Assembly: GCA_013696965.1 (NCBI GenBank)
Contig: JACCXN010000007.1
Location: 1 to 37,044 of the forward strand
DNA from: Bacteroidota bacterium
GTDB lineage: Bacteria; Bacteroidota; Bacteroidia; JACCXN01
Length of the DNA: 37,044 nt
Direction of reading: 5' to 3'
Below the pieces are notes generated by a model. It was not told the origin of the DNA, searched no databases, and was given only the letters and a program-made list of their open reading frames with translations. A program made the position numbers and the translations under genes. Shown piece by piece: positions 32,805 to 37,044 of the stretch. Position 1 is the stretch's first letter; each line of letters begins with the position of its first letter.

Positions 32805-32825
32805 TTTAAAAAAAATTACTTTTTT
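32795..32825. terminator. Shared bidirectional terminator overlapping two stop codons
   Basis: AAAAAAGTAATTT (32795-32807) and AAATTACTTTTTT (32813-32825) form a perfect 13-bp stem with a 5-nt A loop. The TAA of the plus-strand small membrane gene (32802-32804) and the TAA of the minus-strand MORN gene (32816-32818) both lie within the stem. The stem is A/T-only apart from one G-C pair, so its efficiency is uncertain. Confidence 0.6.
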
Positions 32826-34447
32826 ATTCCGTTTATATATTCTACTTTATTAATTACAACTCCTTTTTTATCATAAAAAATCCAGACTCCGTCTGATTTT
32901 CCATTCTTGTAATTGGACTTGCTTCTTATTACCTCCCCCGGAACTCTATGGTAACTAATTCCTTTCCCATGTAATTCACCCTTTTGAAAACTCTGTTGCT
33001 GGAATTTTTGGCCGGTTTCAAAATAATAGTTCCAAAGCCCATCGGGTTTTCCTTTTGAGTAACTTCCTTGGCTTTCCATTATTCCAGTATCGTAATTTGA
33101 TATCCAAAAGCCTTCCTTAAATCCTTTTACATAATTCCCCTTTTCTGTCATTTTACCTTGAGCATTATAAAATACCCAGTTGCCATCTTTAACATCCTCT
33201 TTACAAGAGCCCTCGTAATTCGGTTTTCCATTGTTAAACCAGCCTTTCCAGGAACCATGCATTTTCCCATTTTCATAAAAGCCTTCGTCCTTTTTCTGAC
33301 CGTTTTCGTACCAGGATAACCAAAGACCTGTTTCTTTATCTTTTACAAAATCACCTTGTTGAACTTTTTGGCCATTTTCAAACCAATAAATCCAATTCCC
33401 GTTTTTAAGGTCGTTTTTGTAGCCGCCCTGTTTCCAGATTTTTTGATCGGTATAATAATATGTCCATTCACCCTCTTTTACCCCTGAAACAAATTCGCCC
33501 TCATATTCTTTTCCTCCTTTATAAAACCAAAAAACCCATTTTCCATTTTGCAAGTCATCTTTAAATACACCCTCCATGTCCTTACTACCATCTTTATAAT
33601 ACCAGATCCAGGAGCCGTCTTTTAAACCATTTTTATACTTTCCGGAAAAATTTAATTGAGAATTATCAAACCATTGAGATGAAAGTCCATTGAATTGGTC
33701 GTTAAGGTAATTGCTTTCTTTCCATTTGCCCCCATTTTCAAACCATTCACTAAAGCTTCCCTCTTTTTTTCCATTCACATAATTTGAAATTTCCTTTTGT
33801 TGTCCATTGCTATACCATTCCTGCCATTGCCCATCCTTTAACTCTTTAATGAATACGCCTTCTGATTTCTTTTGTCCATTATTATAATACTGCAGGTTTT
33901 TACCCTCTTTATACCCATTCTTATACTCTGAACTTTCCTTTATTTTGTCGTTTTTATACCAAGTAATCAAGGTTCCATTTCCATTTAAAATTGTCTGCTT
34001 TCCCTTCTCATTCCAAAAATCGAGTAAAAGAATAGTATCAGCACTAAATTTCTCAACTTTTATTTTTGTATTATTTTCCTGCCAGTTAATCCAGATGCTG
34101 TCTTTATATCCAGCCTTATAAAAGCCTTCTTCCTTTTTATTGCCACTTTCATACCAGCTTGTTTTCAGGCTATCGGCTTTTCCATTATTAAAATAACCAA
34201 CATCCTTAGTCTTTCCGTTCTTATAATAATAGGCCACCTTGCCGTGTGGTTTCCCATTGGAGTAATTCATTTCTTCTTCTAATTCACCCGACTCATAATA
34301 ATAAAGCCATTTTCCCTGCTCAACTCCAAGGATATTATACTTGCCCTCGGACCTCTTATTTCCACTTGGCCAATTTTCTACAGTTTGTTGAGTATATGCA
34401 AAGAGGCAATTCATCAAGACAATCCAGGTAGTTAGGAATCTTTTCAT
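32816..34447 (-). CDS. Secreted MORN-type (YwqK-like) repeat protein
   Basis: A 543-residue protein with a signal peptide (~1-19, ends FAYTQ), the rest being about 20 tandem repeats of ~24 residues. The consensus is G-x-W-x-x-W-[YF]-x-N-G-[QK]-K-x-x-E-G-x-[YF]-x-N-G-x-K-[DE] (for example GQWQEWYSNGQQKEISNYVNG, GLWLSWYENGQKKDEGFYENG). These are MORN_2 repeats, which form elongated beta-hairpin solenoids. One or two repeats near residue 130 are degenerate (DSIWINWQENNTKIKVEKF). Database names often call such proteins 'YwqK family antitoxin', but a signal peptide and the absence of any toxin gene nearby argue against a toxin-antitoxin role. More likely it is a periplasmic or surface scaffold. 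It converges with the small membrane protein gene. Confidence 0.9.
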   Translation of the reverse strand: MKRFLTTWIVLMNCLFAYTQQTVENWPSGNKRSEGKYNILGVEQGKWLYYYESGELEEEMNYSNGKPHGKVAYYYKNGKTKDVGYFNNGKADSLKTSWYESGNKKEEGFYKAGYKDSIWINWQENNTKIKVEKFSADTILLLDFWNEKGKQTILNGNGTLITWYKNDKIKESSEYKNGYKEGKNLQYYNNGQKKSEGVFIKELKDGQWQEWYSNGQQKEISNYVNGKKEGSFSEWFENGGKWKESNYLNDQFNGLSSQWFDNSQLNFSGKYKNGLKDGSWIWYYKDGSKDMEGVFKDDLQNGKWVFWFYKGGKEYEGEFVSGVKEGEWTYYYTDQKIWKQGGYKNDLKNGNWIYWFENGQKVQQGDFVKDKETGLWLSWYENGQKKDEGFYENGKMHGSWKGWFNNGKPNYEGSCKEDVKDGNWVFYNAQGKMTEKGNYVKGFKEGFWISNYDTGIMESQGSYSKGKPDGLWNYYFETGQKFQQQSFQKGELHGKGISYHRVPGEVIRSKSNYKNGKSDGVWIFYDKKGVVINKVEYINGIKK

Positions 34448-34873: not shown

Positions 34874-35254
34874 ATGATTATGAAGAGCTGTTTTTTGACT
34901 ATCCTTTTAATTTCATCGGTTTGCATTAATTTGTATTCACAAAATGGCAATCCATCCAGCGATCTTGAACTAAGGCTTAATAAATTGTCAGTTGAAGAAA
35001 AGATGGATCAACTCCAAAAGGTACACAAGGAAATTTTTCAATTACCTCATGATTTTGATTATATAAAATCAACTATAATGGGAGAATTTAATGCATATCG
35101 GGCAATACATGCTCCTAATTTTCCAGTTCGCGAGAATTTAGGAAATGATCAGAAAAAAATTGATCTTGCTTTTAAACATTGGATAAGTTCCTATCCTATG
35201 GAATATAAATTATGTATAATTAAAGGATTTGAAATTATCCGTAAATATAAGTGA
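34874..35254 (+). CDS. Small secreted protein of unknown function
   Basis: A 126-residue protein (an alternative ATG at 34880 would remove two residues). The N-terminal ~22 residues are a signal peptide (CFLTILLISSVCINLYSQ). The mature part is mostly helical and charged (LELRLNKLSVEEKMDQLQKVHKEIF, KKIDLAFKHWISSYPMEYKLCIIKGFEIIRKYK) with a single Cys near the C-terminus. No family is recognised. Its TGA is followed after one base by the ATG of the giant adhesin gene, so the two are almost certainly translated from one message. A role as a periplasmic partner, chaperone or secreted cofactor of the large protein is a guess from that spacing alone. Confidence 0.65.
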   Translation: MIMKSCFLTILLISSVCINLYSQNGNPSSDLELRLNKLSVEEKMDQLQKVHKEIFQLPHDFDYIKSTIMGEFNAYRAIHAPNFPVRENLGNDQKKIDLAFKHWISSYPMEYKLCIIKGFEIIRKYK

Positions 35255-35255
35255 T

Positions 35256-37044
35256 ATGAGATATTTATACCTGTTTTTTATTGTTGCTTGTTTATCCCTA
35301 ATTAATCCCCAAGATACTATTGCTCAATCCTGTGTTGGCAATTGTGGAGGTTCTGCTGGTGGATGCTGGTGTGATGATGCCTGTTGGTTATTGGGTGATT
35401 GTTGTTCTGATATGTGTGCCTCCTGCCCAGGCCAAGGTTCTAATACAACAGCTAATTGTGGCAATCCTCCTCCACCTCCTCCACCTCCTCCACCTCCCCC
35501 TCCTGGCTCAGGCTGTCATATAAACAACTCCATATGTACTCCTGGTGTAGCAGGGCCATTTTCTTTTAGTAATCAAGCACAAGGCCCACCAACTGACTAC
35601 GCTAATCCCGTAGGATGTAGTACAGGTTTGTATGGAAACACAACAGGCTTTGGCTTTGTTTTATTAAGCATTACCCAAGGCGGCCCCTTAAATCTTTTGG
35701 TAAATGGCAATGCTAATAGTGGGTATATTGATGTTATTATTTATAATATTCCCACAGGTGTTGGTGCCTGTACAGCAGTAATGAACCAAAGCAATGAAAT
35801 TGGTTGTAATTATGCTCCTGCTTCTGCCGGTTGTACCCAATGGGGAAATGATTTTCCTTGCTCCTCAAGTATTGCTGCTCCTATGGTTACTGCTGGACAA
35901 ACAATTATGATTATCGTTCATGATTATTCAACCCAAAGTTCAAGTTTTACTTTGTCTTTAGGTCCAAATGGGGCACAAACAGGCCCATACAATACAACAA
36001 TCACTCCTGCCGGACCATTTTGCTCCAATTCTCCAGCCGTAAATTTGACTTCCGTTACTGGAGGTGGAACATGGACTGGTACAGGAATAACAAATGGTTC
36101 CGCTGGTACCTTTAATCCTGGAGTTGCAGGAGTAGGTACACATACAATCACATATACAATTCCAGGTGTTTGCGGTGGTTCAAGTACAGAAACAATTGTG
36201 GTTAATCAAGCCCCAATAACCCCAACCGCTCCTAATGGGCCACTAACTGTTTGTCAGGGTACTGCAACTTCTAATTATACAACTACAGGAAATACCGTTA
36301 CCTATGGTTGGACAATTACTGGTGCAGGAAATACTATCACTGGTAGTGGCACGAGTGCAAATGTAACGTGGAATCCAACATTTAATGGAAATGTACAGAT
36401 TTGTGCTGATGCAACAAATAATTGTGGTACTGCACCGCCAAGCTGTATAACTGTTAATGTTACTCCATCGGCTGTTATTACTGTAAACCCAGCAACAGCC
36501 TCCATCTGCGAAGGTGATTCTGTTTCTTTATCCGCATCAGGGTCTGGAACCTATATTTGGTCTCCTTCCATAGGTTTAAGTGCCACAACTGGAGCTACGG
36601 TATATGCCTTCCCTACTTCTACAACTACATATACAGTTAATGAATCCAATCAAAATGGTTGTGGTAGTTCTGGTAGTGTTACTGTAACCGTAAATTCAAA
36701 ACCTACAGTGACATTAAATGATACAGCTATCTGTATTGGAGAAAATGTTACAATTACTGCTATACCAACAATAAACGGAGGATCCTTTTTATGGAGTCCG
36801 GGAGGTGAGCAAACAGCATCAATTACAGTATCACCAAATACTACAACAAGGTATTATCTAGAATATTCACTCAACGGTTGTTCGGATACTACCAGTGCTT
36901 TGGTAACAGTATCACCAATTCCTGTTATTGATGCAGGGGCTGATCAAATATTTTGCGTTGGAACATTAACTCAGCTTACTGCCAATGGTGCTGACAACTA
37001 CCAATGGATGCCAGGAGGTGAACTCACACAAACAATCAGTGTTG
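35256..37044 (+). CDS. Start of a giant secreted Ig/PKD-repeat protein with an N-terminal Somatomedin-B-like module (3' end missing)
   Basis: The frame runs from ATG 35256 to the window edge (596 codons) without a stop. Residues 1-24 are a signal peptide ending TIAQ. Residues 26-57 have the cysteine spacing C-x3-C-x6-C-x-C-x3-C-x5-CC-x3-C-x2-C with the core CWCDDACWLLGDCCSD, closely like the animal Somatomedin-B fold. Residues 71-83 are 13 consecutive prolines. A ~150-residue region with paired cysteines follows, then at least four Ig/PKD-like repeats of ~80-90 residues (PFCSNSPAVNL, TVCQGTATSNY, ASICEGDSVSLSASGSGTYIWSPS, AICIGENVTITA, IFCVGTLTQLTA), each with a Cys near its first strand and a YxWxP-like motif. 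Such proteins in Bacteroidota normally end in a T9SS or gliding-associated C-terminal domain, which would lie outside the window. The probable role is surface adhesion. Confidence 0.88.
   Translation, partial: MRYLYLFFIVACLSLINPQDTIAQSCVGNCGGSAGGCWCDDACWLLGDCCSDMCASCPGQGSNTTANCGNPPPPPPPPPPPPPGSGCHINNSICTPGVAGPFSFSNQAQGPPTDYANPVGCSTGLYGNTTGFGFVLLSITQGGPLNLLVNGNANSGYIDVIIYNIPTGVGACTAVMNQSNEIGCNYAPASAGCTQWGNDFPCSSSIAAPMVTAGQTIMIIVHDYSTQSSSFTLSLGPNGAQTGPYNTTITPAGPFCSNSPAVNLTSVTGGGTWTGTGITNGSAGTFNPGVAGVGTHTITYTIPGVCGGSSTETIVVNQAPITPTAPNGPLTVCQGTATSNYTTTGNTVTYGWTITGAGNTITGSGTSANVTWNPTFNGNVQICADATNNCGTAPPSCITVNVTPSAVITVNPATASICEGDSVSLSASGSGTYIWSPSIGLSATTGATVYAFPTSTTTYTVNESNQNGCGSSGSVTVTVNSKPTVTLNDTAICIGENVTITAIPTINGGSFLWSPGGEQTASITVSPNTTTRYYLEYSLNGCSDTTSALVTVSPIPVIDAGADQIFCVGTLTQLTANGADNYQWMPGGELTQTISV
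35466..35504 (+). repeat. In-frame proline-codon tandem repeat
   Basis: The 9-bp unit cctcctcca is repeated three times, followed by cct ccc cct cct, encoding 13 prolines. Because the unit is a multiple of three, slippage would change spacer length without shifting the frame. It separates the cysteine-rich head from the rest of the protein. Confidence 0.85.

Follow-up and report, generated by a model that had tools for sequence, protein, structure and literature searches.

The closest described relatives of the domain reported here are the Somatomedin-B (SMB) domains (PF01033) of vitronectin, ENPP1-3 and EndoU. It was reported that the SMB domain of vitronectin binds uPAR and PAI-1 via Asp22, which is flanked by Phe13 and Tyr28 (PMC8417595). 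In the open literature searched, SMB was treated in animals only, and no paper on prokaryotic SMB domains was found. Here, we describe an SMB domain in a surface protein encoded at the end of a 37,044-nucleotide stretch of DNA from a Bacteroidota bacterium, the whole of which is called the window. The eight-cysteine frame, the CxCD and CCxD motifs, the predicted fold and the N-terminal extracellular position are common to this domain and its animal counterparts. Unlike them, it has an extra cysteine pair (Cys54 and Cys68) and sits on a type IX-type bacterial surface protein. The gene and its parts were mapped as follows.

35256..37044, forward strand: surface-protein ORF (ATG at 35256; 596 amino acids present, cut by the contig end)
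35256..35327, forward strand: probable signal peptide, residues 1-24 (hydrophobic N-terminus MRYLYLFFIVACLSLI, read by eye)
35328..35426, forward strand: SMB domain, residues 25-57 (profile, PDB and fold matches; eight canonical cysteines plus Cys54)
35415..35459, forward strand: extra cysteine pair of the ten-cysteine variant (Cys54 at 35415-35417, Cys68 at 35457-35459; co-occurrence across the family)
35466..35504, forward strand: polyproline linker, residues 71-83, 13 prolines (from the translation; missing from the Fluviicola homologue)
35508..36032, forward strand: second domain (D2), residues 85-259, a cysteine-containing beta-sandwich, weakly PPC-like or collagen-binding-domain-like
36480..36704, forward strand: Ig_7 (CHU_C-associated Ig-like) domain, best stretch residues 409-483 (PF19081, E=1.8e-11)

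A second Ig_7 stretch in the same ORF likewise passed in the PF19081 profile search. Residues 26-57 (CVGNCGGSAGGCWCDDACWLLGDCCSDMCASC) lie at 35331-35426, exactly to the base where the sequence-only reading had placed the module, and the canonical SMB cysteines are residues 26, 30, 37, 39, 43, 49, 50 and 57. The spacing given there, C-x3-C-x6-C-x-C-D-x2-C-x5-CC-x-D-x-C-x2-C with an extra cysteine at position 54, also holds; the tenth cysteine (Cys68) falls outside that interval. The polyproline rod does separate SMB from the downstream protein as described, but D2, rather than the Ig repeats, follows it directly. The protein had been called giant; its size is not readable from the window, as the ORF is cut off by the end of the contig at 37044. 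The last 145 bases of the contig matched nothing elsewhere in the genome when a continuation was sought, contig-edge tails on two other contigs (C100 and C105) were not linkable to the cut gene, and a plasmid search gave 0 matches. Upstream, an ORF of 126 aa (34874-35254), which probably encodes a signal peptide, ends one base 5' of the SMB-gene ATG, and neither a Pfam match nor a relative among 59 other genomes searched was found for it. A 543-aa protein consisting mostly of MORN_2 repeats (32816-34447, reverse strand) adjoins the SMB gene in the opposite orientation.

The eight-cysteine frame C-x3-C-x(n)-C-x-C-D-x2-C-x5-CC-x6-C is present, with a loop length within the family range. The second loop, of six residues, is indeed shorter than the nine of vitronectin, but this is not unusual, as bacterial SMBs span 6-12 residues and 20 of 132 have six. 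The PF01033 search that had been proposed as a check scored the isolated domain at 21.5 bits and the whole ORF at 15.5 bits, both under the curated Pfam cut-off of 23.1 bits, which is a detection threshold and not a structural feature. Since this score was borderline, independent tests were made. A cross-phylum profile, built from 121 SMBs of other phyla and none from Bacteroidota, scored the window domain at 39.7 bits, while none of 5,000 cysteine-fixed shuffles reached this score (best, 23.3 bits), indicating that the likeness exceeds cysteine spacing. In an alignment of the window SMB with bacterial SMBs (60 members), 57 matched PF01033 at E<=0.01. The bacterial SMB profile matched 43 distinct PDB sequences, every one SMB-bearing, including EndoU (2.8e-13), ENPP1 (1.7e-11) and vitronectin (6e-8). 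The AlphaFold2 model of the domain, built with the SMB alignment, had a pLDDT of 89.7, and its best PDB match in Foldseek was the vitronectin SMB 1oc0_B (prob 0.97; rmsd 1.7 A over 36 columns; TM 0.74 by target). The predicted structure thus showed the expected fold at a weak Foldseek E-value (0.15), which is explained by the tiny size of the domain. Judged from the profiles and the predicted fold, the window domain is a true SMB homologue and not a product of convergence.

A complete homologue of the same layout was identified in Fluviicola sp. NORP2 (L188, 1,955 aa). It is composed of a signal peptide, an SMB of the same variant at the corresponding position, the D2 beta-sandwich, Ig repeats and, as its type IX tail, a CHU_C domain (E 6e-19); the 13-proline linker of the window protein is absent from it. 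The N-terminal placement and surface location proposed earlier are supported. D2 is predicted, with middling confidence (69.7), to fold as a beta-sandwich, and it weakly resembles PPC and collagen-binding domains. It was found at high score in 5 of 395 Bacteroidia genomes and at low score in 12 more. Other Bacteroidia surface proteins with D2, Ig_7 and CHU_C have the same chassis and a different N-terminal module or none: SMB is replaced by two FCC-WD-C modules in L164 and by a PPC-like domain in L165, and L166 and L189 have nothing there. The N-terminal module is therefore swapped on the same chassis among relatives. The cysteine-rich FCC..WD..C module, which stands twice at the N-terminus of L164 (537-2807, forward strand) and matched no Pfam family, resembles a module following the SMBs of another Bacteroidia protein, L159. 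A C-terminal sorting domain (CHU_C or Por_Secre_tail) is present in L188, L164 and L166, and the window's genome encodes 34 copies of the TIGR04131 type IX tail. These tails and the relatives also suggest that the window's organism belongs to Bacteroidia. By analogy with these proteins, we infer that the window protein is a type IX-exported surface protein whose own C-terminus lies beyond the contig end.

The two extra cysteines of the window domain are not independent of each other in the family. Among 132 framed bacterial domains, all 21 with both a Cys54-like and a Cys57-like residue had one more cysteine no farther than eight residues away; of 100 domains without the Cys54-like residue, 32 had one (Fisher p 1.9e-9, indicative only, because the domain rows are related). 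This co-occurrence suggests a fifth disulfide, predicted between Cys54 and Cys68. The usual SMB pairing would join residues 26-39, 30-57, 37-50 and 43-49, to which 54-68 would be added. The ten-cysteine variant also occurs in Fluviicola and others, and the C-x2-C-x10-C spacing of the extra cysteines is common to the window and the repeats of G499, another Bacteroidia genome. The window SMB is an uncommon family member with one extra predicted disulfide.

Of the vitronectin contacts, Asp22 is kept in the window as Asp40, which is invariant in the SMB family. The contact set as a whole is not present, and uPAR and PAI-1 are not expected as ligands, because Tyr28 corresponds to Leu46 and Phe13 falls in the shortened loop. 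The helix face W44-L45-L46 is hydrophobic at all three positions, as in only 4 of 123 bacterial domains, and its Trp is shared with the Fluviicola and G499 forms. This hydrophobic face makes a protein-binding head the leading interpretation, and the domain probably serves an exported surface protein as an exchangeable, disulfide-stabilised putative binding head. In such a protein, the type IX tail would anchor the molecule at the cell surface or release it, the Ig repeats would keep the SMB head at a distance from the cell, and the knot would present the W44-L45-L46 face beside Asp40; through these, it would bind a partner protein outside the cell, much as the SMB of vitronectin uses Asp22 and Tyr28.

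The main rival to a binding head is a cap with a mainly structural role, in which the rigid disulfide knot would shield the exported N-terminus from proteolysis and have no specific partner. The strong sequence variation outside Cys, Asp and Gly fits such a cap, as do the relatives that get by with other cysteine-rich modules, a different domain or nothing. That several relatives have lost the module, however, also implies that a cap is hardly needed, the helix face of three Bacteroidia variants has the unusual pattern W-[LT]-[LWF] in common, and the six SMB copies in some proteins go beyond the needs of a cap. A cap is considered unlikely, though still worth weighing. A ten-cysteine bacterial SMB at the mature N-terminus of a type IX-exported surface protein, serving as a binding head, is on the whole the probable explanation.

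The sequence-only reading regarded SMB domains as chiefly animal, which is contradicted by their distribution. When 84,980 prokaryote genomes were scanned by motif, at least 113 stretches matched, and the full SMB frame was present at at least 86 prokaryotic loci, mostly in Myxococcota; the matches listed include 57 loci in Myxococcota, 10 labelled Pseudomonadota, five in Planctomycetota, two in Bacteroidota and a few in archaea. Two viral pattern matches were rejected, being without the full frame. Archaeal metagenome-assembled genomes with SMB-like domains belong to Woesearchaeota and Ca. ainarchaeum (L036, L104, L056). The SMBs of Myxococcota and Planctomycetota are the same module, often secreted and repeated, and include a ten-cysteine subset with CC-x-D-x-C-x2-C; the SMB-rich genomes counted in these phyla contain 14-34 copies, whereas the window's genome contains one. 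In Bacteroidota, the suggested search recovered the same architecture in Fluviicola, but SMB proved rare, with a clear match in 2 of 395 Bacteroidia genomes (the window's genome and G499); Fluviicola and one Cryomorphaceae genome were added by motif. A PF01033 search across 395 genomes from the phylum gave five marginal matches, some in stop-containing frames, which are probably mostly chance except that of the window. Two Bacteroidia SMB proteins, L096 and L159, exceed the Pfam cut-off (28.3 and 25.2 bits), and both have a Por_Secre_tail. In L096 (2647-5181, forward strand; Cryomorphaceae), SMB is part of a fusion protein with a Porphyromonas-type peptidyl-arginine deiminase and fn3 domains that also bears a type IX tail, and L159 (2406-5477, reverse strand; G499) has six near-identical tandem ten-cysteine SMBs in a 156-base repeat.

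Given this wide prokaryotic family, the window SMB is not a one-off loan from animals. Vitronectin and ENPP1 are the best matches among solved structures, and an AU test did not reject a tree that groups the window domain with animal SMBs (p 0.54); yet prokaryotic homologues are abundant and closer, and by pairwise score against the window the five animal SMBs that were tested came 68th to 122nd among 128, below most bacterial SMBs. The tree of 132 SMBs has 36 columns and no resolution, rejects no placement and does not settle ancestry; by path in it, the nearest to the window are Planctomycetota, Hydrogenedentota and Fluviicola ten-cysteine forms. Direct borrowing from a eukaryote, one of two origins proposed earlier, thus found no support, and a recent acquisition from an animal is highly improbable. 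Convergence, the other, by which an unrelated cysteine-rich peptide would have acquired SMB-like spacing, is the least probable of all and is ruled out by profile homology, since, although small disulfide-rich domains do converge and the Pfam cut-off was narrowly missed, cysteine-keeping shuffles fell far below the window domain and only true SMB structures were recovered by the bacterial profile. The origin of the window SMB is more simply explained by spread among bacteria. More tentatively, SMB might be an ancient prokaryotic extracellular module that was taken over by animals, and the ten-cysteine form might be a separate branch with five disulfides that serves exported bacterial surface proteins as an exchangeable recognition head; this is possible but doubtful. 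With at least 86 prokaryotic loci, archaeal ones included, the origin of the vitronectin/ENPP module becomes a testable question, and so does the role of SMB in bacterial surface recognition.
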